Assembly (NCBI RefSeq): GCF_019972815.1
Contig: NZ_BPPA01000005.1
Span: 62,001-126,000, forward strand
DNA length: 64,000 nt
DNA from: Lactobacillus huangpiensis
GTDB lineage: Bacteria > Bacillota > Bacilli > Lactobacillales > Lactobacillaceae
Direction: 5' to 3'
Numbering within the stretch: the first letter of the stretch is position 1; every line of letters starts with the position of its first letter. Under the pieces are notes generated by a model. It saw only the letters and a list, made by a program, of their open reading frames with translations. It searched no databases and had not been told where the DNA came from. A program made the position numbers and the translations under genes. Shown here piece by piece: positions 33,533 to 41,788 of the stretch.

Positions 33533-34738
33533 TTATTCAATTTTAAAAGTTTTACCCACTTTACCATTAATTAATTCTTCTACAGCAATTGGTTTTTCAG
33601 GATTATGATCTTTATCTACAGTGATTTTCCCAGTTACGCCAGTAAAATCTTTAATTTGTTCCAGACCCTTCGTGATTTTTGCAGAATCATCGGATTTTTC
33701 ATTTTCGATTGCTTCTTTAATCATATATACTGCATCATAAGCTAAAGCAGAAAAAGTTGGTGCTTCTTCATGGTAGCGGTTCTTGAAATCGCGCATAAAT
33801 TTAGAAGCAGTTGGATCCTTGGCAGCTACCTGTGTTGAAAAGGGCGTGGTATAGTAGATTTTACTTGCATTTTTAGCACCAGCAATCTGTACCAGCTTAG
33901 GATCAGCCATGCCATCACTACCGACAATTGGTGCCTTAATTCCAATTTGACGCGCTTGCTTAATTATTAAGCCAACTTCCGTGTAGTAGCCTGGAACGTA
34001 AATAGCATCGACTTTCTTAGCTTTAAACGAAGTTAATACAGCGTTAAAATCTTTGTCACCTTCTGAAAATGTCTGACTATCAACTATCTTGCCTTTATAA
34101 GTTTTCTTAAATGCTCTAGCAAGACCGTTACCATAGTCACTTGAATTGTCAGTATAGACAGCCACTCTTTTTGCCTTAATGTTATTCATTACGAATTTGG
34201 CTGCACTACCACCTTGAAAATTATTTTGGTAACATGCCCTAAAAACAAATGGCTGAACTTTACCGTTCTTTTGTAAAGTGTAATTTGGATCTGTCGCTGA
34301 AGGACTGACACTTGGTACCTTAGCTTTAGTAATATTAGGAATTTCAGCTGTGCCGGCATTAGTAGTTGCTGGTCCTACAATTGCTGCTACCTTTTCTTTT
34401 GTAGCTAATTGGGCGGCAACTGAAGCAGAAGTAGAAATAGCAGTTTTATTATCACGCATAATCAGTTTGATTTTTTTCTTACGACCATTAACATCAATGC
34501 CGCCTTTTTTATTAATTTCACTAACTGCTAATTGAATACCTTGCTTTTGAGCGTTGCCATAACCGGCTGCAGCTCCAGACAACTCCATGTTAACGCCAAT
34601 TTTGACTGAATCTTTATCTTGCTTAGTTCCAGTACTGCTACTGCTTCTAGCTACTGTACAGCCTGCCAGCATAAAAGCTGCCATGCCAGTGATTACAACA
34701 TTCATTATCTTCTTAATACCACTAATATTATTCATCAT
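33533..34738 (-). CDS. livJ: Branched-chain amino acid ABC transporter substrate-binding lipoprotein, copy 1
   Basis: This 401-residue type I periplasmic-binding-fold protein has a lipobox LAGC (Cys26), so it is a membrane-tethered lipoprotein. The family segments GVNMELSGAAAGYGNAQ, ATTNAGTAEIPNITKAKVPS and YTDNSSDYGNGLA are present. It is a close paralogue of copy 2 at 38453-39658, which heads the full transporter operon. This copy lies after livF but has its own leader peptide and attenuator (34777-35000). It may widen the ligand range of the same transporter. Specificity for Leu/Ile/Val is inferred from the family and the Leu-rich leader. Confidence 0.93.
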   Translation of the reverse strand: MMNNISGIKKIMNVVITGMAAFMLAGCTVARSSSSTGTKQDKDSVKIGVNMELSGAAAGYGNAQKQGIQLAVSEINKKGGIDVNGRKKKIKLIMRDNKTAISTSASVAAQLATKEKVAAIVGPATTNAGTAEIPNITKAKVPSVSPSATDPNYTLQKNGKVQPFVFRACYQNNFQGGSAAKFVMNNIKAKRVAVYTDNSSDYGNGLARAFKKTYKGKIVDSQTFSEGDKDFNAVLTSFKAKKVDAIYVPGYYTEVGLIIKQARQIGIKAPIVGSDGMADPKLVQIAGAKNASKIYYTTPFSTQVAAKDPTASKFMRDFKNRYHEEAPTFSALAYDAVYMIKEAIENEKSDDSAKITKGLEQIKDFTGVTGKITVDKDHNPEKPIAVEELINGKVGKTFKIE

Positions 34739-34776: not shown

Positions 34777-34814
34777 CAAAAAAGCCTCATTCAAATCAAT
34801 GAATGAGGCTTAAA
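34777..34814 (-). terminator. Attenuator terminator in the livJ1 leader
   Basis: AAGCCTCATTCA (34782-34793) and TGAATGAGGCTT (34800-34811) form a 12-bp stem with a 6-base loop. A run of six Us follows on the minus strand, 39 bases before livJ1. Its first arm can instead pair with the segment at 34825-34834. Confidence 0.92.
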
Positions 34815-34824
34815 TTATCAATTA

Positions 34825-34904
34825 GTTAAACCCCAATCATTGACACGCAAACTAGGGCTTAACTACTTTAAATTACATCACGTAATTCATGTATGTTAAG
34901 TCCT
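34825..34904 (-). promoter_or_regulatory. Competing RNA segments of the livJ1 attenuator
   Basis: In transcript order: segment 1 AGGACTTAAC (34904-34895) pairs with segment 2 GTTAAGCCCT (34863-34854), with a nested ATTAC/GTAAT hairpin between them. Segment 2 also pairs with segment 3 GGGGTTTAAC (34834-34825). Segment 3 also pairs with TTTAAGCCTC (34814-34805), the first arm of the terminator. Segment 1 contains the stop codon of the leader peptide. Confidence 0.8.
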
Positions 34905-34985
34905 GCGCTCCAACAACAAGGTAACTAAATCCTGAGTTTGAAAAATATTCATATTATTTTTTTGATTAACATATTTCGTTTCCAT
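34896..34985 (-). CDS. 29-residue Leu-rich leader peptide of livJ1
   Basis: ATG at 34985 with a strong GAGGAGG (34994-35000) starts METKYVNQKNNMNIFQ, and the peptide ends VTLLLERRT. Three consecutive TTG Leu codons precede a stop that lies inside the first RNA segment of an attenuator. It aligns without gaps to the leader of livJ2 (12 of 29 identical, including the LLL run and the RT end). Its role would be to sense leucyl-tRNA through ribosome position rather than to act as a protein. Confidence 0.85.
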   Translation of the reverse strand: METKYVNQKNNMNIFQTQDLVTLLLERRT

Positions 34986-35084: not shown

Positions 35085-35795
35085 CTAACCACCAAAATAT
35101 ACTTTCTGTACTTCCGGGTTAGCCAACAATTCTTGACCAGTACCACTTAATTGCACTATTCCTGTCGCCAATACATAACCACGATCGGCAATAGATAGAG
35201 CTTGTTTAGCATTTTGTTCTATCAACAAAATAGTTGTACCTTTTTCGTTTAGTTCTTTAATAATTTTAAATATTTCTTGAATATACAGGGGTGACAAACC
35301 CATTGATGGTTCATCAAGCAGCAACAATTTTGGCTTTGCCATTAAGGCACGACCCATGGCCAACATTTGCTGCTCACCACCAGACAGGGTAGCTGCATCC
35401 TGATTACGCCTTTTTTGCAAAATTGGAAAGCGTTCAAAAATATCTTTATATGTTTTTGAAACTTCATCATGATTCTTTTGCAAAAACGCACCCATCTGCA
35501 GATTCTCCATTACGGTCATTCCAGCAAAAATATGCCGACCTTCTGCTACTTGAGAGATACCTGCGCTGACAATTTGCGGAGCACTTTTGTGATCTATTTC
35601 TTCGCCAAGGTAGAAAATTTGACCACTTTTTGGCTTAAGTAAGCCAGAAATTGTCTTGACAATAGTTGACTTACCAGCTCCATTAGCTCCGATTAGGGTT
35701 ACGATTTCACCTTGGTTAATTTCAAAACTGACATTCTTAACAGCTTGAATAACACCATAATTTACAGACAAGTCACGAACTTCTAACATTGCCAT
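35085..35795 (-). CDS. livF: Branched-chain amino acid ABC transporter ATPase LivF
   Basis: This 236-residue ATPase has Walker A GANGAGKST near residue 36, signature LSGGEQQML, Walker B LLLLDEPSMGLSP and switch His replaced as usual for LivF (LIEQNA). It ends KVYFGG. It is contiguous with livG (1-base spacing) in the livJHMGF operon. It powers import of branched-chain amino acids with LivG through the LivHM channel. Confidence 0.95.
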   Translation of the reverse strand: MAMLEVRDLSVNYGVIQAVKNVSFEINQGEIVTLIGANGAGKSTIVKTISGLLKPKSGQIFYLGEEIDHKSAPQIVSAGISQVAEGRHIFAGMTVMENLQMGAFLQKNHDEVSKTYKDIFERFPILQKRRNQDAATLSGGEQQMLAMGRALMAKPKLLLLDEPSMGLSPLYIQEIFKIIKELNEKGTTILLIEQNAKQALSIADRGYVLATGIVQLSGTGQELLANPEVQKVYFGG

Positions 35796-36578
35796 CTAGT
35801 CATCACCCTCTCCTAGATATGCTTCAACAACTTTAGGATTTGCCTTGATTTCTTCAGGAGATCCGGTAGCCAATATCTCGCCTTGATCAAGTACATAAAT
35901 TCTTTCAGCCAGGTTCATAACTAAAGACATGTCATGCTCAATTAACAAAACTGTGATCTGAAATTCTTTTTGAATATATTTAATAAGATTAGTCAAATCC
36001 GCTGTTTCTTCTGGGTTCATACCAGCAGCAGGTTCATCCAGGAAAAGAATCTGCGGGTGAGTAGCCAAAGCACGTACTATTTCTAAGCGTCTTTGTGTTC
36101 CGTAGGGCAAGTTCTTAGCCAAGGTTTGTTCATTATCCGTTAAATCAAAGATTGCTAATAGCTTTTGCGCAGCTTCTTTCATTTCCTTTTCCGTTTTATA
36201 AAAACTGGGTAAACGAAAAACTGTTGTTAAAAAGTTTTCTTTGTATTCATTTGTCATTGCAGTCAGGACATTATCCATAACAGTTAAGTCTTTAAATAAG
36301 CGAATATTTTGAAATGTACGGGATAAACCTAAGTCTGCAATTTGCACAGCACTTTTATGCGTCAAATCATAATTTTTATCATCAACTTGCAAGTTGATCT
36401 TTCCACTAGTAACTTGGACCATTCCAGTTAGCAAGTTGAACAAAGTGGTTTTACCTGCACCATTAGGACCAATCAAGGCAACTAGTTCGTGCTTATCCAG
36501 ATGAAGTGAGACATCATTAACTGCAGTTAACCCACCGAACTTGCGCACTACGTGGTCAACATCTAATAAGTGTGGCAT
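35796..36578 (-). CDS. livG: Branched-chain amino acid ABC transporter ATPase LivG
   Basis: This 260-residue ATPase has Walker A GPNGAGKTT near residue 36, signature region LPYGTQRRLEIVRAL typical of LivG, Walker B ILFLDEPAAGMNP and switch His in LIEHDMS. It ends with the conserved EAYLG. It is translationally adjacent to livM and livF. Confidence 0.95.
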   Translation of the reverse strand: MPHLLDVDHVVRKFGGLTAVNDVSLHLDKHELVALIGPNGAGKTTLFNLLTGMVQVTSGKINLQVDDKNYDLTHKSAVQIADLGLSRTFQNIRLFKDLTVMDNVLTAMTNEYKENFLTTVFRLPSFYKTEKEMKEAAQKLLAIFDLTDNEQTLAKNLPYGTQRRLEIVRALATHPQILFLDEPAAGMNPEETADLTNLIKYIQKEFQITVLLIEHDMSLVMNLAERIYVLDQGEILATGSPEEIKANPKVVEAYLGEGDD

Positions 36579-36581
36579 ATA

Positions 36582-37538
36582 CTAGCCCCTTTCCTTTTTG
36601 CCAAAATGGCGTGTCAAATTTTTAAGAGAGAATTCCCAGTTACCCAAAAGTCCTGATGGCTTGAAAATCATGATTAGTATCAGAACTATAGCATAGATAA
36701 CCATTCTTAACGCACCGAAACTTTGTAAAACGGTATCTAAAACGCCTAAAACAATTGCTGCAACAAACGTGCCAGTCATACTGCCAACACCACCCAAAAC
36801 AACAATAACTAAGATAGAGATAGATTCCATGATACCAAAGTTTGAAGGAGATATTGTTTGCAAGAATGAAGCATGGAGACTGCCAGCTATTGCAGCAGTT
36901 GCGCCACCTAGAACGAAAGCTGCCAGCTTCCATTTAGTAGTATTAATTCCCATTGCTTCAGCAGCAATTTCGTCTTCACGAACGGCTTTAATTGCCCGAC
37001 CATTTTTTGAACGAATGAAGTTAGTCAAAATGATTGTGGTCACACAAACCAAGATATAAACAGTTGGCCATGAGCATAACTGAGGAATATTGTATAACCC
37101 TGCCGCTCCACCAGTAATTTTCAAATTATTAATGACATTGCGGATAATCTCAGCTGCTCCTAGAGTTGCGATTGCTAAATAGTCACCCTTTAAACGAATG
37201 AAAGTTGCCGTACCAATAACTGCAGCAATTACAATTGCTATCAGCACACCTACGAGCATTGAGATTAAAAAGCCAGCTTCGCTACTCATGCGTTGAGTAA
37301 TAATCGCGGTAGCGTATGCTCCAATTGCCATGAAACCGGCATGACCCAGAGAAAATTGACCACTAAAACCGATAATCAGGTTTAAGCCGGTAGCTAAGAT
37401 AATATTTATTCCAATCGTGACCAGCATATTTTCAATAAAATCATCTATCACGCCAACCATAATCAACGCATTGATTAAGTAAAAGCCGCCTACCATTAAT
37501 AACAGCCACGACAAAATGTATTTCCAATTAGATTTCAT
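36582..37538 (-). CDS. livM: Branched-chain amino acid ABC transporter permease LivM
   Basis: This 318-residue membrane protein has about eight spans and the LivM motif NLIIGFSGQFSLGHAGFMAIGAY. It also has the cytoplasmic EAA-like loop AIKAVREDEIAAEAMGINTTKWK. It forms the import channel with LivH. It lies 8 bases after livH. Confidence 0.95.
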   Translation of the reverse strand: MKSNWKYILSWLLLMVGGFYLINALIMVGVIDDFIENMLVTIGINIILATGLNLIIGFSGQFSLGHAGFMAIGAYATAIITQRMSSEAGFLISMLVGVLIAIVIAAVIGTATFIRLKGDYLAIATLGAAEIIRNVINNLKITGGAAGLYNIPQLCSWPTVYILVCVTTIILTNFIRSKNGRAIKAVREDEIAAEAMGINTTKWKLAAFVLGGATAAIAGSLHASFLQTISPSNFGIMESISILVIVVLGGVGSMTGTFVAAIVLGVLDTVLQSFGALRMVIYAIVLILIMIFKPSGLLGNWEFSLKNLTRHFGKKERG

Positions 37539-37546
37539 TTTGCCAC

Positions 37547-38425
37547 CTACACCTTCTCTTTAGCATTTTTGCCAAAAATACCAGCAGGTAAGAAAAGCAA
37601 AATGACTATTAATACTAGATAAACAACTGAATCTTTATATGCCGACAAACCGATAGACTGGAAGAATGTTTCCAAGATACCGATTAAGAAACCACCAATA
37701 GAAGCTCCTGGCACTGAGCCGATTCCACCAAGTACAGCAGCAACAAAGGCTTTAATTCCTGGTGTCATGCCCATTAAAGGATCGATTTGGTTGTAATACA
37801 TTCCAATTAAAATGCCTGCAGCACCGGCTAAAGCCGAACCTAAAGCAAAGGTAAATGAAATCGTATGATTAACATTAACACCAACTAATTCAGCGGCAGC
37901 AGGATCTACGGATACTGCACGCATTGCCCGACCCATTTTGGTCTTTTGAATAATGATCTGCAATGAAACCATCAATATTAAAGCAGTAGCCAAAATCAAA
38001 ATCTGAACATTTGAAATTTGCACTCCACCGATATTGTAATTAACCTGCTCAATTACTTGGGGGAAGCTGCGAGCATTTGATCCTACAAAGTATGACATGC
38101 CATTTTCCAGTAAAAACGATACGCCGATAGCCGTAATCAGTACAGCTATACGAGGCGACTTACGTAGTGGCCGGTAAGCAAAATACTCAATCACTACGCC
38201 TGAAACTGCACCAATAATCATTGCAGAAAGCAGTGCTGTAATAAAGTTAAAATGCCAAGCATTAATCACATAGTAGGCAAAGAATGCACCTAGCATATAA
38301 ATATCGCCGTGAGCAAAGTTAATTAAATTAATAATGCCATAAACCATGCTGTAGCCTAAAGCCAACAGGGCATAAATCGAACCCAGTGACAAGGCGTTAA
38401 TGATTTGCTGTAAAACTGTTTGCAA
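37547..38425 (-). CDS. livH: Branched-chain amino acid ABC transporter permease LivH
   Basis: This 292-residue membrane protein has the LivH N-terminus NALSLGSIYALLALGYSMVYG and the loop motif GRAMRAVSVDPAAAELVGVN. It is followed by VLGGIGSVPGASIGGFLIG. It is the first permease after livJ2 and forms the channel with LivM. Confidence 0.95.
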   Translation of the reverse strand: MQTVLQQIINALSLGSIYALLALGYSMVYGIINLINFAHGDIYMLGAFFAYYVINAWHFNFITALLSAMIIGAVSGVVIEYFAYRPLRKSPRIAVLITAIGVSFLLENGMSYFVGSNARSFPQVIEQVNYNIGGVQISNVQILILATALILMVSLQIIIQKTKMGRAMRAVSVDPAAAELVGVNVNHTISFTFALGSALAGAAGILIGMYYNQIDPLMGMTPGIKAFVAAVLGGIGSVPGASIGGFLIGILETFFQSIGLSAYKDSVVYLVLIVILLFLPAGIFGKNAKEKV

Positions 38426-38452: not shown

Positions 38453-39658
38453 TTACTCAACACGGAATGAGTCGCTTACTTTACCGTTAGTCAATTTTTC
38501 AATCGCAATTGGCATTTCCGGATTGTGGAATTTATCCATGGTAATTCTGCCAGTCACACCGTCAAAGTCTTTAATCTTAGCTAGACCTTCAGTAATTTTA
38601 ACTGAATCATCTGATTTTTGTTCTTCAATAGCAGTTTTTACTAAATAAACTGCATCATAAGCTAATGCTGAAAATGTCGGTGCATCCGCATGGTAGCGAG
38701 CTTTATATGCTTTGATAAACTTAGCAGCTTTTGAATCTGGATTCTTGGCAGCTACATTAGTTGAAAATGGTGTAGTGTAATAAATATTGGTTGCATTTTT
38801 AGCACCTGATATTTGAACGAGTTTAGGATCACACATACCGTCACCACCAACGATTGGAGCTTTAATACCCATTTGCCGTGCTTGTTTGATGATCAAACCC
38901 AATTCTGTGTAGTAGCCCGGTACATAAATAGCATCGATTTTCTTAGATTTAAATGAAGTTAAAACAGCATTGAAATCTTTATCACCTGCAGAATACGTTT
39001 GACTATCAACTATCTTGCCTTTATAAGTATCTTTAAAGGCTTTTGCTAAACCAGTACCATAATCACTGGAGTTATCTGCGTATACCGCTACACGCTTTGC
39101 TTTTAATTTATCGGTGACAAATTTAGCAGCGCTCTTTCCTTGGAAAGTATCTTGGAAGCAAGCTCTAAAGACGTAAGGCTGAACCTTGCCATTTTTCTGT
39201 CTGGTATAGTTTGGATCCGTTGCAGATGGACTAATGCCTGGAACAGAAGCCTTGGTAATATTAGGAATTTCAGCGGTACCACAATTAGTAGTAGCTGGCC
39301 CTATAACTGCTGCCACTTTATCCTTAGTTGCCAGTTGTGCAGCAACCGAAGCAGAAGTAGCAATTGCGGATTTATTATCACGGATAAGCAATTTAAGCTT
39401 CTTTTTATGTCCGTTAACATTAATTCCACCGGCTTTATTAATTTCAGAAGCTGCTAATACTATACCTTGCTTTTCAGCACTGCCGTAGCCGGCAGCAGTA
39501 CCAGACAACTCTATATTAATCCCGACTTTGACTGTATCTTTATCTTGGTGTGTACCCTTGCCGCCCCCACTTTTTGCAACTGAACAGCCGGCTAGCGCTA
39601 AGCCGGCCATTCCCAACGTAAAAATACGCAACAAATTTTTTGAAAATTTACTCATCAT
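38453..39658 (-). CDS. livJ: Branched-chain amino acid ABC transporter substrate-binding lipoprotein, copy 2 (operon head)
   Basis: The start is at 39658 (MMSKFSKNLLRIFTLGMAGL); the longer frame would begin inside the attenuator terminator. AAGGAG lies directly upstream, and the second ATG at 39655 is equally possible. The 401-residue lipoprotein has lipobox LAGC and the type I binding fold, like copy 1. It heads livJHMGF and is controlled by the leader at 39686-39903. Copies 1 and 2 are close paralogues over their whole length. Confidence 0.94.
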   Translation of the reverse strand: MMSKFSKNLLRIFTLGMAGLALAGCSVAKSGGGKGTHQDKDTVKVGINIELSGTAAGYGSAEKQGIVLAASEINKAGGINVNGHKKKLKLLIRDNKSAIATSASVAAQLATKDKVAAVIGPATTNCGTAEIPNITKASVPGISPSATDPNYTRQKNGKVQPYVFRACFQDTFQGKSAAKFVTDKLKAKRVAVYADNSSDYGTGLAKAFKDTYKGKIVDSQTYSAGDKDFNAVLTSFKSKKIDAIYVPGYYTELGLIIKQARQMGIKAPIVGGDGMCDPKLVQISGAKNATNIYYTTPFSTNVAAKNPDSKAAKFIKAYKARYHADAPTFSALAYDAVYLVKTAIEEQKSDDSVKITEGLAKIKDFDGVTGRITMDKFHNPEMPIAIEKLTNGKVSDSFRVE

Positions 39659-39685: not shown

Positions 39686-39718
39686 TAAAAACCTCATTCA
39701 TTTAATGAATGAGGCCTA
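39686..39718 (-). terminator. Attenuator terminator in the livJ2 leader
   Basis: CCTCATTCATT (39692-39702) and AATGAATGAGG (39704-39714) form an 11-bp near-continuous palindrome followed by a short U-run on the minus strand, 28 bases before livJ2. It shares its CCTCATTCA core with the livJ1 attenuator. Its first arm with the extra bases to 39718 can instead pair with the segment at 39733-39740. Confidence 0.9.
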
Positions 39719-39732
39719 GATCAGTTATTAGA

Positions 39733-39808
39733 TAAGCCCCATTCATTAAGACGCAAACAAGGGCTTTTCATGTAAAATTACTAAAGTAATTCAATCATGC
39801 TAAGTCCT
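39733..39808 (-). promoter_or_regulatory. Competing RNA segments of the livJ2 attenuator
   Basis: Segment 1 AGGACTTAGCATG (39808-39796) pairs with segment 2 CATGAAAAGCCC (39772-39761) around a nested AATTACT/AGTAATT hairpin. Segment 2 (AAGCCC) pairs with segment 3 GGGGCTTA (39740-39733). Segment 3 pairs with TAGGCCTC (39718-39711). The pairing scheme is the same as in livJ1 despite several base differences, and the loop GTTTGCGT is shared. Confidence 0.82.
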
Positions 39809-39889
39809 AGACGACAACAACAAGGCAATTAAACTCTGGGCGATAATATTTTTAATGTTGGTTCGTTTATTTAAATATTTAGCTTTCAT
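39800..39889 (-). CDS. 29-residue Leu/Ile-rich leader peptide of livJHMGF
   Basis: ATG at 39889 follows GGGAGG (39898-39903). The peptide starts MKAKYLNKRTNIKNII and ends SLIALLLSSRT, with three consecutive TTG codons followed by a stop in RNA segment 1. Four Ile and six Leu among 29 residues fit a sensor for branched-chain amino acid supply. It is homologous to the livJ1 leader. Confidence 0.86.
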   Translation of the reverse strand: MKAKYLNKRTNIKNIIAQSLIALLLSSRT

Positions 39890-39925
39890 TAAAATCGCCT
39901 CCCAAAATTTAATTTAATACTTAGA

Positions 39926-39954
39926 ATTATAAAAAAAGAACATTAGCATGTCAA
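39926..39954 (-). promoter_or_regulatory. Consensus promoter of livJHMGF
   Basis: Perfect TTGACA (39954-39949) and TATAAT (39931-39926) with a 17-base spacer lie on the minus strand. Such a strong constitutive promoter fits control at the level of termination. Confidence 0.95.
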
Positions 39955-40070: not shown

Positions 40071-41558
40071 TTAAAATACTGCTTTTTTCCGCCAAAATAC
40101 AACCATGATACATAAAACAAAATAGCATAAAATCATGAGCATTATTGGTAACCATATTTCATAATATGCTGTTGGCAGAACCTGATTAAAGATTTTTAGA
40201 CCAAACAAAGCATCAAAGACACCAAAAACCGCTGGAATTAAAAACAACAGTCCCGTTACGTAAGTGCTACTTTCCTGTGATACTTTTTGAGTCTTTAATT
40301 TTTGATCAATATCCCGGTTTTTCTTAGCAAATTTTATTACCTCTATTATCAAAATAGCAATCAGAGTTGCACCAAATACAAATGCCAGTGAGTAGCCCAA
40401 GATCTTCATTTCTTTACTCATCCCCAATATCAGCTGATAAGTAGCCGCCTTCGAGTTGCTATAGAGTCGACTATAGGTAAGACTACTTTGAGCCTGTTTA
40501 TGTTCAATTTTTAGTAAAAATGACCAGTCTCTATCAAAACTGTTTAGCTGCACCAAAGTCAGATATTTAGTTTTACCATTAACCCTATTTAATTCTGCAG
40601 TTGAACAAAGTGCAATTGTTTTATTTTTTTGACTGCTATTAGGAACGAGTTCGCGGAAACTGTTACCTGCTAGAGAATTTTTATTCAACTGGTCTAACTT
40701 GATTGATTTGACTTGAAAATTGCGTCTGCCGGTATTTCTGACGTACTTAATTGGATTATCTGCCAGCTCATTACGAACAAAATAAAAGTGCCCTTTTGTT
40801 TCTTTATAATGGTAAGTTTGCTGCTTTTTAATTTTTAGTTGAGCAACATCGTTTTTAATATTGGCGGTATTGCTGACAATTACGCCATCATAATAAGTTC
40901 CCCTCTTAATATCTTGAGAAAAGGCATTAAAGTCATGACTTAAAGCCAGAACGCCCATAGTTAAGGCAAAGAGTATGGAAATGATAGTAAAAACACTGGC
41001 ATAATGATGGAGTCCCAACTGCGTTTTTCCTTTAGCCAACTTAATTTTGCTAAACCAAGTTGCAGGTACCAAGCTTAATAACGAGTGGCAAAGCAAATAA
41101 GTACCTGACACAATTGTGACAAAGGCTGCCAATAAAGTATTAAACAGATTTTGACTAGGCAAATTTAGTATAAGATAGCCGGTTACTATTAGTATCAATC
41201 CTAAAACCATTTCAATTATTCTTAGTCCTGAATGTTTTTGCAAAATTGCAGGTGCATCTTCTTTTTCAGCTAAACTGCTTAAAATAGTTTTGGTTAGCCT
41301 CAAAGTTACTACAATTCCGCCAAACATTAATAAGGCTACTAGTAACATAACCACTTGCATGCCCCAATTGATCCGCAGAAAACTGTTAATGAAGTTAAAA
41401 TTCGGCACATCCTGTTTTATCAAACCGCTAAACAACTTAATAATTAAGGACGCTAAATCCAACCCTAAAATAATGCCAGCGACAATCATCAAACCGCTAA
41501 TAATGAGAGTCGCACAAAGTTCTATCAGTCCAACGCGCATATTTTTTAATTTTTGCAT
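40071..41558 (-). CDS. N-terminally shortened BceB-type ABC permease
   Basis: The start is set at the ATG at 41558 (MQKLKNMRVGLIELCATLII). About 495 residues align with the middle and end of the two BceB-type permeases at 51-55 kb. Shared features are the same order of spans, a large extracellular domain with QQTYHYKE, and the C-terminal four-span part. The first ~100 residues of those proteins (first spans and the LLSMRKHDYGMYMMLGAKS segment) are missing. No ATPase gene is adjacent. It may be a decayed paralogue, or may borrow the ATPase of the other system. A terminator follows it. Confidence 0.75.
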   Translation of the reverse strand: MQKLKNMRVGLIELCATLIISGLMIVAGIILGLDLASLIIKLFSGLIKQDVPNFNFINSFLRINWGMQVVMLLVALLMFGGIVVTLRLTKTILSSLAEKEDAPAILQKHSGLRIIEMVLGLILIVTGYLILNLPSQNLFNTLLAAFVTIVSGTYLLCHSLLSLVPATWFSKIKLAKGKTQLGLHHYASVFTIISILFALTMGVLALSHDFNAFSQDIKRGTYYDGVIVSNTANIKNDVAQLKIKKQQTYHYKETKGHFYFVRNELADNPIKYVRNTGRRNFQVKSIKLDQLNKNSLAGNSFRELVPNSSQKNKTIALCSTAELNRVNGKTKYLTLVQLNSFDRDWSFLLKIEHKQAQSSLTYSRLYSNSKAATYQLILGMSKEMKILGYSLAFVFGATLIAILIIEVIKFAKKNRDIDQKLKTQKVSQESSTYVTGLLFLIPAVFGVFDALFGLKIFNQVLPTAYYEIWLPIMLMILCYFVLCIMVVFWRKKAVF

Positions 41559-41788
41559 CAAGATCACCAAACTTTCTGTTCAGCTCCTTCAAGCAGACCA
41601 CCTTTTGACTTAATTATAGTTAGCGCTGTCATTTTTTAAATGACCTGAACAGTTTCTTGAACATATTTTAATATTTGCTTTTTAAACCATTATTCTTTTT
41701 TAAATATTGCTTTTTGTTAGTATCAATTTCCTCCAGCTTGATCGCCATTTTTAAAACATTTTTCCTATCATATTTCTTTATAGAAAAT

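Follow-up and report, generated by a model that had tools for sequence, protein, structure and literature searches.

A predicted leucine-sensing attenuator family in the leaders of branched-chain amino acid importer genes of Lactobacillaceae

The leader ahead of the branched-chain amino acid (BCAA) importer operon livJHMGF in this Lactobacillus is very probably a ribosome-mediated transcription attenuator that senses charged leucyl-tRNA, and would control livJHMGF and, through a second copy, livJ2. Comparison of leader sequences indicates that the leader ORF, its Leu run, the pairings A:D, B:C and C:D with compensatory changes, the D:E complementarity and the terminator helix E:F have been kept, as has, in most leaders, a stem (P0) predicted to sequester the SD of the leader; the timing of the switch and its response to leucine we infer. 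The kind of attenuator is known, and what is new is the family, the target and two design features.

Organization of the livJHMGF leader

On the minus strand of the window (the whole stretch of 64,000 nucleotides that was analysed) the order is promoter, SD, 29-codon ORF, ~80 bases of structured RNA, terminator, livJ, livH, livM, livG, livF and livJ2. The window livJ matches at 98% those of L. kimbladii, L. kullabergensis and L. laiwuensis, which are honey-bee gut dwellers, pointing to a close Lactobacillus. A preliminary description of this DNA had claimed a promoter, an SD with a short ORF and a terminator 28 bases ahead of livJ, and all of them were confirmed. The sigma-70 promoter TTGACA-17-TATAAT, at 39926..39954 (-), matches the consensus at 12/12 positions, and is the sole 12/12 site among the eight promoter-like sites found between 39000 and 41500 with a 9/12 threshold (mean of 8.8 in shuffles). 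The ORF, at 39800..39889 (-), encodes MKAKYLNKRTNIKNIIAQSLIALLLSSRT, ends in IALLLSSRT before its stop codon and is preceded by the SD GGGAGG at 39898..39903. The intrinsic terminator (GGCCTCATTCATTAAATGAATGAGGTTTTT), composed of the E:F hairpin and a T tract, is located at 39687..39717 (-), with the livJ ATG 28 bases on. The hairpin at 39687..39716 was not among the calls of a terminator scanner run on the window, probably because G-U pairing consumes part of the T tract. For a 499-aa ORF upstream of the leader, at 40071-41570 (-), neither NCBIfam nor Pfam gave a match at the thresholds applied.

The first gene, livJ1 (38453..39658, -), encodes a branched-chain amino acid substrate-binding protein (Peripla_BP_6, 2.4e-52). 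Its start at 39658 was assigned from the SD AAAAGGAG, and is probably the true one, since the start given by the ORF finder, 39697, falls within the terminator. It is followed by the permease genes livH (37547..38425, -) and livM (36582..37538, -), the ATPase genes livG (35796..36578, -) and livF (35085..35795, -), and livJ2 (33533..34738, -), encoding a second substrate-binding protein with 73% identity to livJ1. The best NCBIfam models for livJ1, livH, livM, livG and livF (NF011933, NF008011, NF008450, NF008449 and NF008626, respectively) all scored below their cut-offs. In the own genome, the profiles for leuA (TIGR00973) and ilvD (PF00920) were unmatched, with the control positive in 14/14 genomes for each, suggesting that import is probably the leucine source of the cell.

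The structured RNA can be divided into segments A to F, preceded by P0. Segment A (39815..39826, -) consists of the codons GCC TTG TTG TTG (Ala-Leu-Leu-Leu), so that the sensor codons are also the 5' strand of A:D. Segment B (39796..39808, -) overlaps the end and stop of the ORF and forms the helix B:C, segment C (39759..39772, -) can pair with B or D, and segment D (39734..39749, -), the antiterminator strand, with A, C or E. In P0, the SD region of the leader (5' strand, 39894..39914, -) pairs with the codons directly preceding the Leu run (3' strand, 39827..39844, -). Of the elements reported previously, segments 1, 2 and 3 correspond to B, C and D and the terminator to E:F, and their pairings are kept in relatives; the pairing of the Leu codons with D, the sequestered SD, the device ahead of livJ2 and the wider set of genes were absent from that first reading.

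In the proposed mechanism, a leader without a ribosome would form A:D, through its Leu codons, together with B:C, which would lock D, allow E:F to form and keep the operon off. When leucine is plentiful, the ribosome would reach the stop codon and cover B, leaving C free for C:D, and the terminator would again switch the operon off. When leucine is short, the ribosome would stall on the run and cover A, while B, ~15 bases downstream, would remain free and hold C; D would then be free for D:E, and read-through would turn the operon on. The alternation of B:C and C:D would act as a relay of ribosome position across ~50 bases to D. P0 may limit loading to the first ribosome, the one trailing the polymerase, this being the least certain step.

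Folding of the window leader was compared with the steps of this mechanism. The RNA folds better than its shuffles (z of -4.99, with 0/200 as good). Equilibrium folding with the ribosome footprint masked gave a D:E probability of 0.97 in the stalled, at-stop and unoccupied states alike, so that the switch itself was not reproduced. The footprint edge was assumed to lie 13 bases past the first base of the A-site codon. The unconstrained minimum free energy structure of this leader is the antiterminator form, and none of the 67 leaders compared has a weaker A:D (-10.4, against -20.0 for its D:E). When only the named helices are allowed, the leader gives -33.9 kcal/mol in the unoccupied state (A:D, B:C, E:F), -25.7 at the stop (C:D, E:F) and -28.9 when stalled (B:C, D:E), against means of -48.6, -32.7 and -27.0 kcal/mol, respectively, over 65 leaders (of a set of 71, described below, leaving out L088, L089 and the variants L119-L122). 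Over the same 65, the mean D:E probability in masked folding was 0.34 with the ribosome stalled, 0.16 with it at the stop and 0.23 in the unoccupied leader; these differences are modest, with stalled above stop in 61/65 and above unoccupied in 46/65. Since the three states of the window leader look alike at equilibrium, kinetics or folding order must matter for its off states. In these models the leader family as a whole would lean as the mechanism asks, and the window copy would do so only if folding order counts.

Conservation of the leader and its pairings

A search for livJ in 301 genomes of the family (E 1e-60) gave matches in 82 genomes at 92 places, and the upstream DNA of 91 was examined; another livJ locus, G295, is outside the 91 and has matches to the covariance model R1 (see below) upstream. 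A leader ORF with a Leu run (Leu plus Ile in L003 and L085) and a terminator behind it was found at 61 of the 91 loci. The leader was missing at the other 30; two of these (L005 and L090) are truncated where the contig stops, and 28 are livJ copies 45-58% identical to that of the window. Among 32 loci from named genomes, it was present in all 10 from Lactobacillus, and was found in none of the 22 Enterococcus, Bavariicoccus and Streptococcus loci. Conservation of the ORF and the pairings in relatives, one of the two points on which the preliminary description had staked its model, was found in many Lactobacillaceae, and the scaffold also precedes leucine-synthesis genes.

For comparison, 71 leaders with an SD-like match of at least 4 were chosen, this number being reached after 19 loci with chance LIV-rich ORFs had been removed by hand (L042, L044, L051, L053, L056, L061, L062, L090, L093, L099, L103, L107, L109, L111-L114, L116 and L117). 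An intrinsic terminator between the ORF and the first gene is present in 67 aligned leaders and in the four variants. The run codons encode Leu in 206/213 cases, the remainder being five Ile and two Ser, and make use of all six Leu codons (TTA 99, TTG 67, CTA 20, CTC 13, CTT 4 and CTG 3). The retention of Leu through six different codons indicates that selection acts on the amino acid. LLL is present in 67/71 leader peptides; the others read VLII (L003, from the same genus), ALLS (L038 and L040) and LIII (L085). The paralogous livJ leaders of one genome differ, with the run LIII in L085 and ALLL in L087.

The same codons bear on whether the attenuator, working as proposed, could take its main signal from a general slowing of translation or from one tRNA-Leu isoacceptor. 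A single codon is used throughout the run in 57/71 leaders, and the window run consists of three TTG, a codon whose share among the 1426 Leu codons of 42 ORFs in the window is 22%, as such a signal might produce; across lineages, however, the runs use all six Leu codons, and the genes most often found behind the leaders serve leucine synthesis and BCAA import, which makes such a main signal very unlikely compared with charged leucyl-tRNA.

In 60/71 leaders the motif GGAC lies 16-17 bases from the first Leu codon, while the stop codon ranges from +15 to +45. This fixed spacing despite a moving stop suggests that the geometry tracks a stalled ribosome rather than the point where the peptide ends. 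The earlier placement of the stop codon within segment B holds in some lineages and fails in others, as the stop moves over that range from the first Leu codon.

A sensor of the TnaC or erm type, in which the nascent leader peptide itself arrests the ribosome and reads a ligand instead of tRNA charging, was considered, given that the residues around the run (Q-N/D-L-A-LLL) are kept in many livJ leaders. The codons for these residues, however, form the 3' strand of P0 and contribute to A:D, and these pairings can account for their conservation. Moreover, leu-type leaders (see below) differ near the run (IEFALLL, TSLLALLL, NTNALLL), the residues after it shift frame, KD or RT being read out of one AGGAC RNA, and the run is Ile in related scaffolds. 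Peptide arrest was set aside as the cause of residue conservation on these grounds (pairing, residue and frame changes, and Ile runs), and a peptide sensor is very unlikely.

The pairings of the proposed attenuator were assessed by covariation and by swap tests. RNAalifold, run on alignment A1 (50 leaders) with no structure supplied, recovered A:D, B:C and E:F, with double changes at 14/27 pairs; changes of the run codons from TTA to CTA are accompanied by a matching change in D. In swap tests with 67 of the 71 leaders (the four variants, L119-L122, being left out), the cognate duplex was more stable than other-genus combinations in fractions of 0.86 for A:D, 0.72 for B:C, 0.72 for C:D, 0.66 for D:E and 0.84 for E:F, with control pairings giving 0.44 (A:E), 0.52 (B:D), 0.47 (C:E) and 0.40 (A:B). 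Mean cognate duplex energies were -17.8 for A:D and -4.9 for A:B. Double changes by column were counted in 64 of the 67 (without L088, L089 and L079): B:C had 20 double-change cells against 6.8 in shuffles and C:D 26 against 11.7, values reached by 0/500 shuffles. Slid registers of C:D come near the true one in double cells (23 at -1 and 20 at +3) but pair far less. For the five-pair core of D:E, covariation was not above shuffles (2 against 0.9 double cells, reached by 167/500), because this core barely varies; the D:E duplex is at -8.8 kcal/mol or better in 67/67 leaders.

The trp leader, which sequesters its own ribosome-binding site, offers a precedent for the predicted closure of the leader SD by P0. 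The mean P0 swap fraction was 0.81 in the 71 leaders, against 0.46 in 39 ordinary window genes, and exceeded 0.9 in 46 leaders; it was below 0.5 in 12/71, including the variants L119-L122. Within the genus Lactobacillus (14 leaders) the cognate duplex averaged -13.8 kcal/mol, against -10.3 for swaps with other genera, and the stem had 9 to 14 consecutive outer-side pairs in 7/9 folded copies of the window's genus. In the 25 leu-type leaders the fraction was 0.69, nine of them being nearly unpaired (-3.9 to -7.3 kcal/mol).

T-boxes control amino acid genes of Firmicutes, including some BCAA symporters, and a survey of transporters takes in lactobacilli (PMC2494555), so that livJ could be under a T-box or a metabolite riboswitch and the ORF be incidental. 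Against this, no Rfam model matched at gathering threshold anywhere in the window, and the leader ORF is under selection at the amino acid level. No T-box was found in the window leader up to E 5 in the Rfam search, and eight weak Rfam matches there (E 0.42 to 4.9) were regarded as chance. At the gathering threshold, 20 leader-bearing loci and 20 further loci gave only Ref68 (in L080, outside the leader) and a group II intron, the latter at positions 398-468 of L102, upstream of a livJ without such a leader; 20 leaderless loci, mostly from Enterococcus, gave no match. Control by a T-box or riboswitch is extremely unlikely.

A second copy and other genes behind the scaffold

A second leader ORF (METKYVNQKNNMNIFQTQDLVTLLLERRT, then stop) was found at 34896..34985 (-), 99 bases behind livF. 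The element at 34778-34931 (-) scored 106.5 bits with the covariance model R1, whose alignment includes both window leaders, this one being its leader L002. The terminator of this second attenuator, with 12 pairs, is at 34782..34811 (-). The second leader and its own terminator (34778-34985, -) are thus placed between livF and livJ2, apparently within the operon. No promoter-like site was found on the leader strand between 34600 and 35200, which, together with the 99-base gap behind livF, suggests that livJ2 is probably transcribed through two serial attenuators.

The strong R1 matches in the own genome are the two livJ leaders only; a third (E 0.0022) looks like chance. Across the family, R1 matched 90/301 genomes at E 1e-3, in 20/40 genera. 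Behind 40 further R1 loci are leuA (20), leuB (5), MFS transporter genes (2), iron-type alcohol dehydrogenase genes (2), amino-acid substrate-binding protein (SBP) genes (2), an oppA-like gene, another livJ and seven chance-looking cases, the third match of the own genome among them. Profiles identified a single protein from each of the leuA, leuB, MFS, alcohol dehydrogenase and oppA-like groups; the amino-acid SBP was classed by eye and the rest by sequence motifs that they share. In the 25 leu-type leaders the stop comes directly at the run, mostly as ALLL followed by the stop codon.

Several of these loci have particular features. The leaders of L180 and L190, located upstream of amino-acid SBP genes, end in AILAVILI, and L180 has the same fold architecture; these leaders could perhaps be a mixed BCAA gauge. 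A leader containing QALLMLSIKDPII precedes the iron-type alcohol dehydrogenase gene in L178 and L179, and in L159, from a genome of the same genus, the scaffold lies ahead of the oppA-like (SBP_bac_5) gene. The MFS transporter genes are those of L170 and L185; for L185 the best model is aromatic acid/H+ symport, below its cut-off, and the run is VLLV.

In 295 genomes of the order, R1 matched 17 in all, six of them outside the family and weaker. These include the leader QNIIIIIKSRA before a livJ-like gene (L206), QNIIIIINNRT before an ilvE-like gene (L207 and L208) and VILIIRFRT before an ilvD-like gene (L210), as well as a livJ-like gene with a partial R1 match and no leader seen (L209), all these genes being named by eye; the match in L211 is probably chance. 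From these sequences, the scaffold seems to accept different sensor codons.

A broader reading, to which we give an even chance of being right, is that one ancestral Lactobacillales RNA scaffold would serve as an exchangeable amino-acid gauge. Its hairpin core would carry Leu runs ahead of livJ, oppA-like, leuA and leuB genes, a Val-Ile-Leu-Ile ending ahead of the gene for an amino-acid SBP and, outside the family, Ile runs ahead of livJ-, ilvE- and ilvD-like genes. Within Lactobacillaceae, sensor codons would double as the strand that locks the antiterminator, and the SD would be shut in most leaders by the codons preceding the run, so that only the pioneer ribosome would be read.

Relation to known attenuators and significance

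The preliminary description held that the logic of the leader differs from that of the trp attenuator, and we agree, although the multi-hairpin his attenuator of Salmonella and E. coli, with six RNA segments, is similar. In both, the read-through form would be B:C plus D:E and the terminated form C:D plus E:F, with the position of the ribosome deciding between them. Here, in contrast, A pairs with D and encloses B:C, whereas the first segment of his pairs with the second (the swap fraction for A:B given above being 0.40 here), and the codons are Leu and the target an importer. By analogy, the leader would work like a his-type six-segment attenuator, and is not classed as a member, as the A:B pairing is absent.

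Among importers, the E. coli liv operons are under Lrp and show Rho-linked premature termination. They share with the window operon a leucine-repressed BCAA importer with premature termination, and, to our knowledge, lack a comparable leader-peptide switch.

Ribosome-mediated leucine attenuation is described for ilv-leu of S. aureus, with a 26-aa leader peptide containing Ile and Leu (PMC5794164). The shared features are a Firmicute host, a leucine-rich leader peptide and a terminator/antiterminator pair, and the promoter activity of ilv-leu rises upon Leu depletion; in contrast to the importer studied here, ilv-leu is a biosynthesis operon, and the likeness is one of description (PMC5794164). 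Listeria Rli60 is likewise a ribosome-mediated ilv-leu attenuator with a 13-aa peptide (PMC5864092). It shares attenuation at BCAA codons, and mutation of its start codon or RBS leads to super-attenuation, the behaviour that our model predicts for an unoccupied leader; again the operon is biosynthetic and the likeness is one of description (PMC5864092). Predictions of ribosome-mediated attenuation of BCAA synthesis exist for Lactococcus, Corynebacterium and Streptococcus (PMC6123439), and histidine leader peptides have been reported in Firmicutes (PMC2965389, PMC9413887).

The Leu/phe leader RF01743 of Lactococcus lactis is, by its name, a Leu or Phe element from the same order (PMC2864571). 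A covariance search with RF01743 placed 0/295 genomes of the order above cut-off, the own genome included, with a positive control in Lactococcus lactis; three weak matches (E 0.002-0.003) were in other families. No paper on a leader peptide ahead of livJ or leuA in lactobacilli was found in a search that left most subscription journals outside.

The attenuator adds a widespread leader family, not found in Rfam or in the searched literature, to lactobacilli, in which T-boxes are better known. Sensor codons that double as an RNA strand, together with a lock on the SD, are specific predictions that are open to simple reporters. The attenuator would put the importer under control in a bacterium seemingly unable to make leucine, and exchanges between Leu and Ile codons within a single scaffold would directly report what each importer or enzyme should supply.
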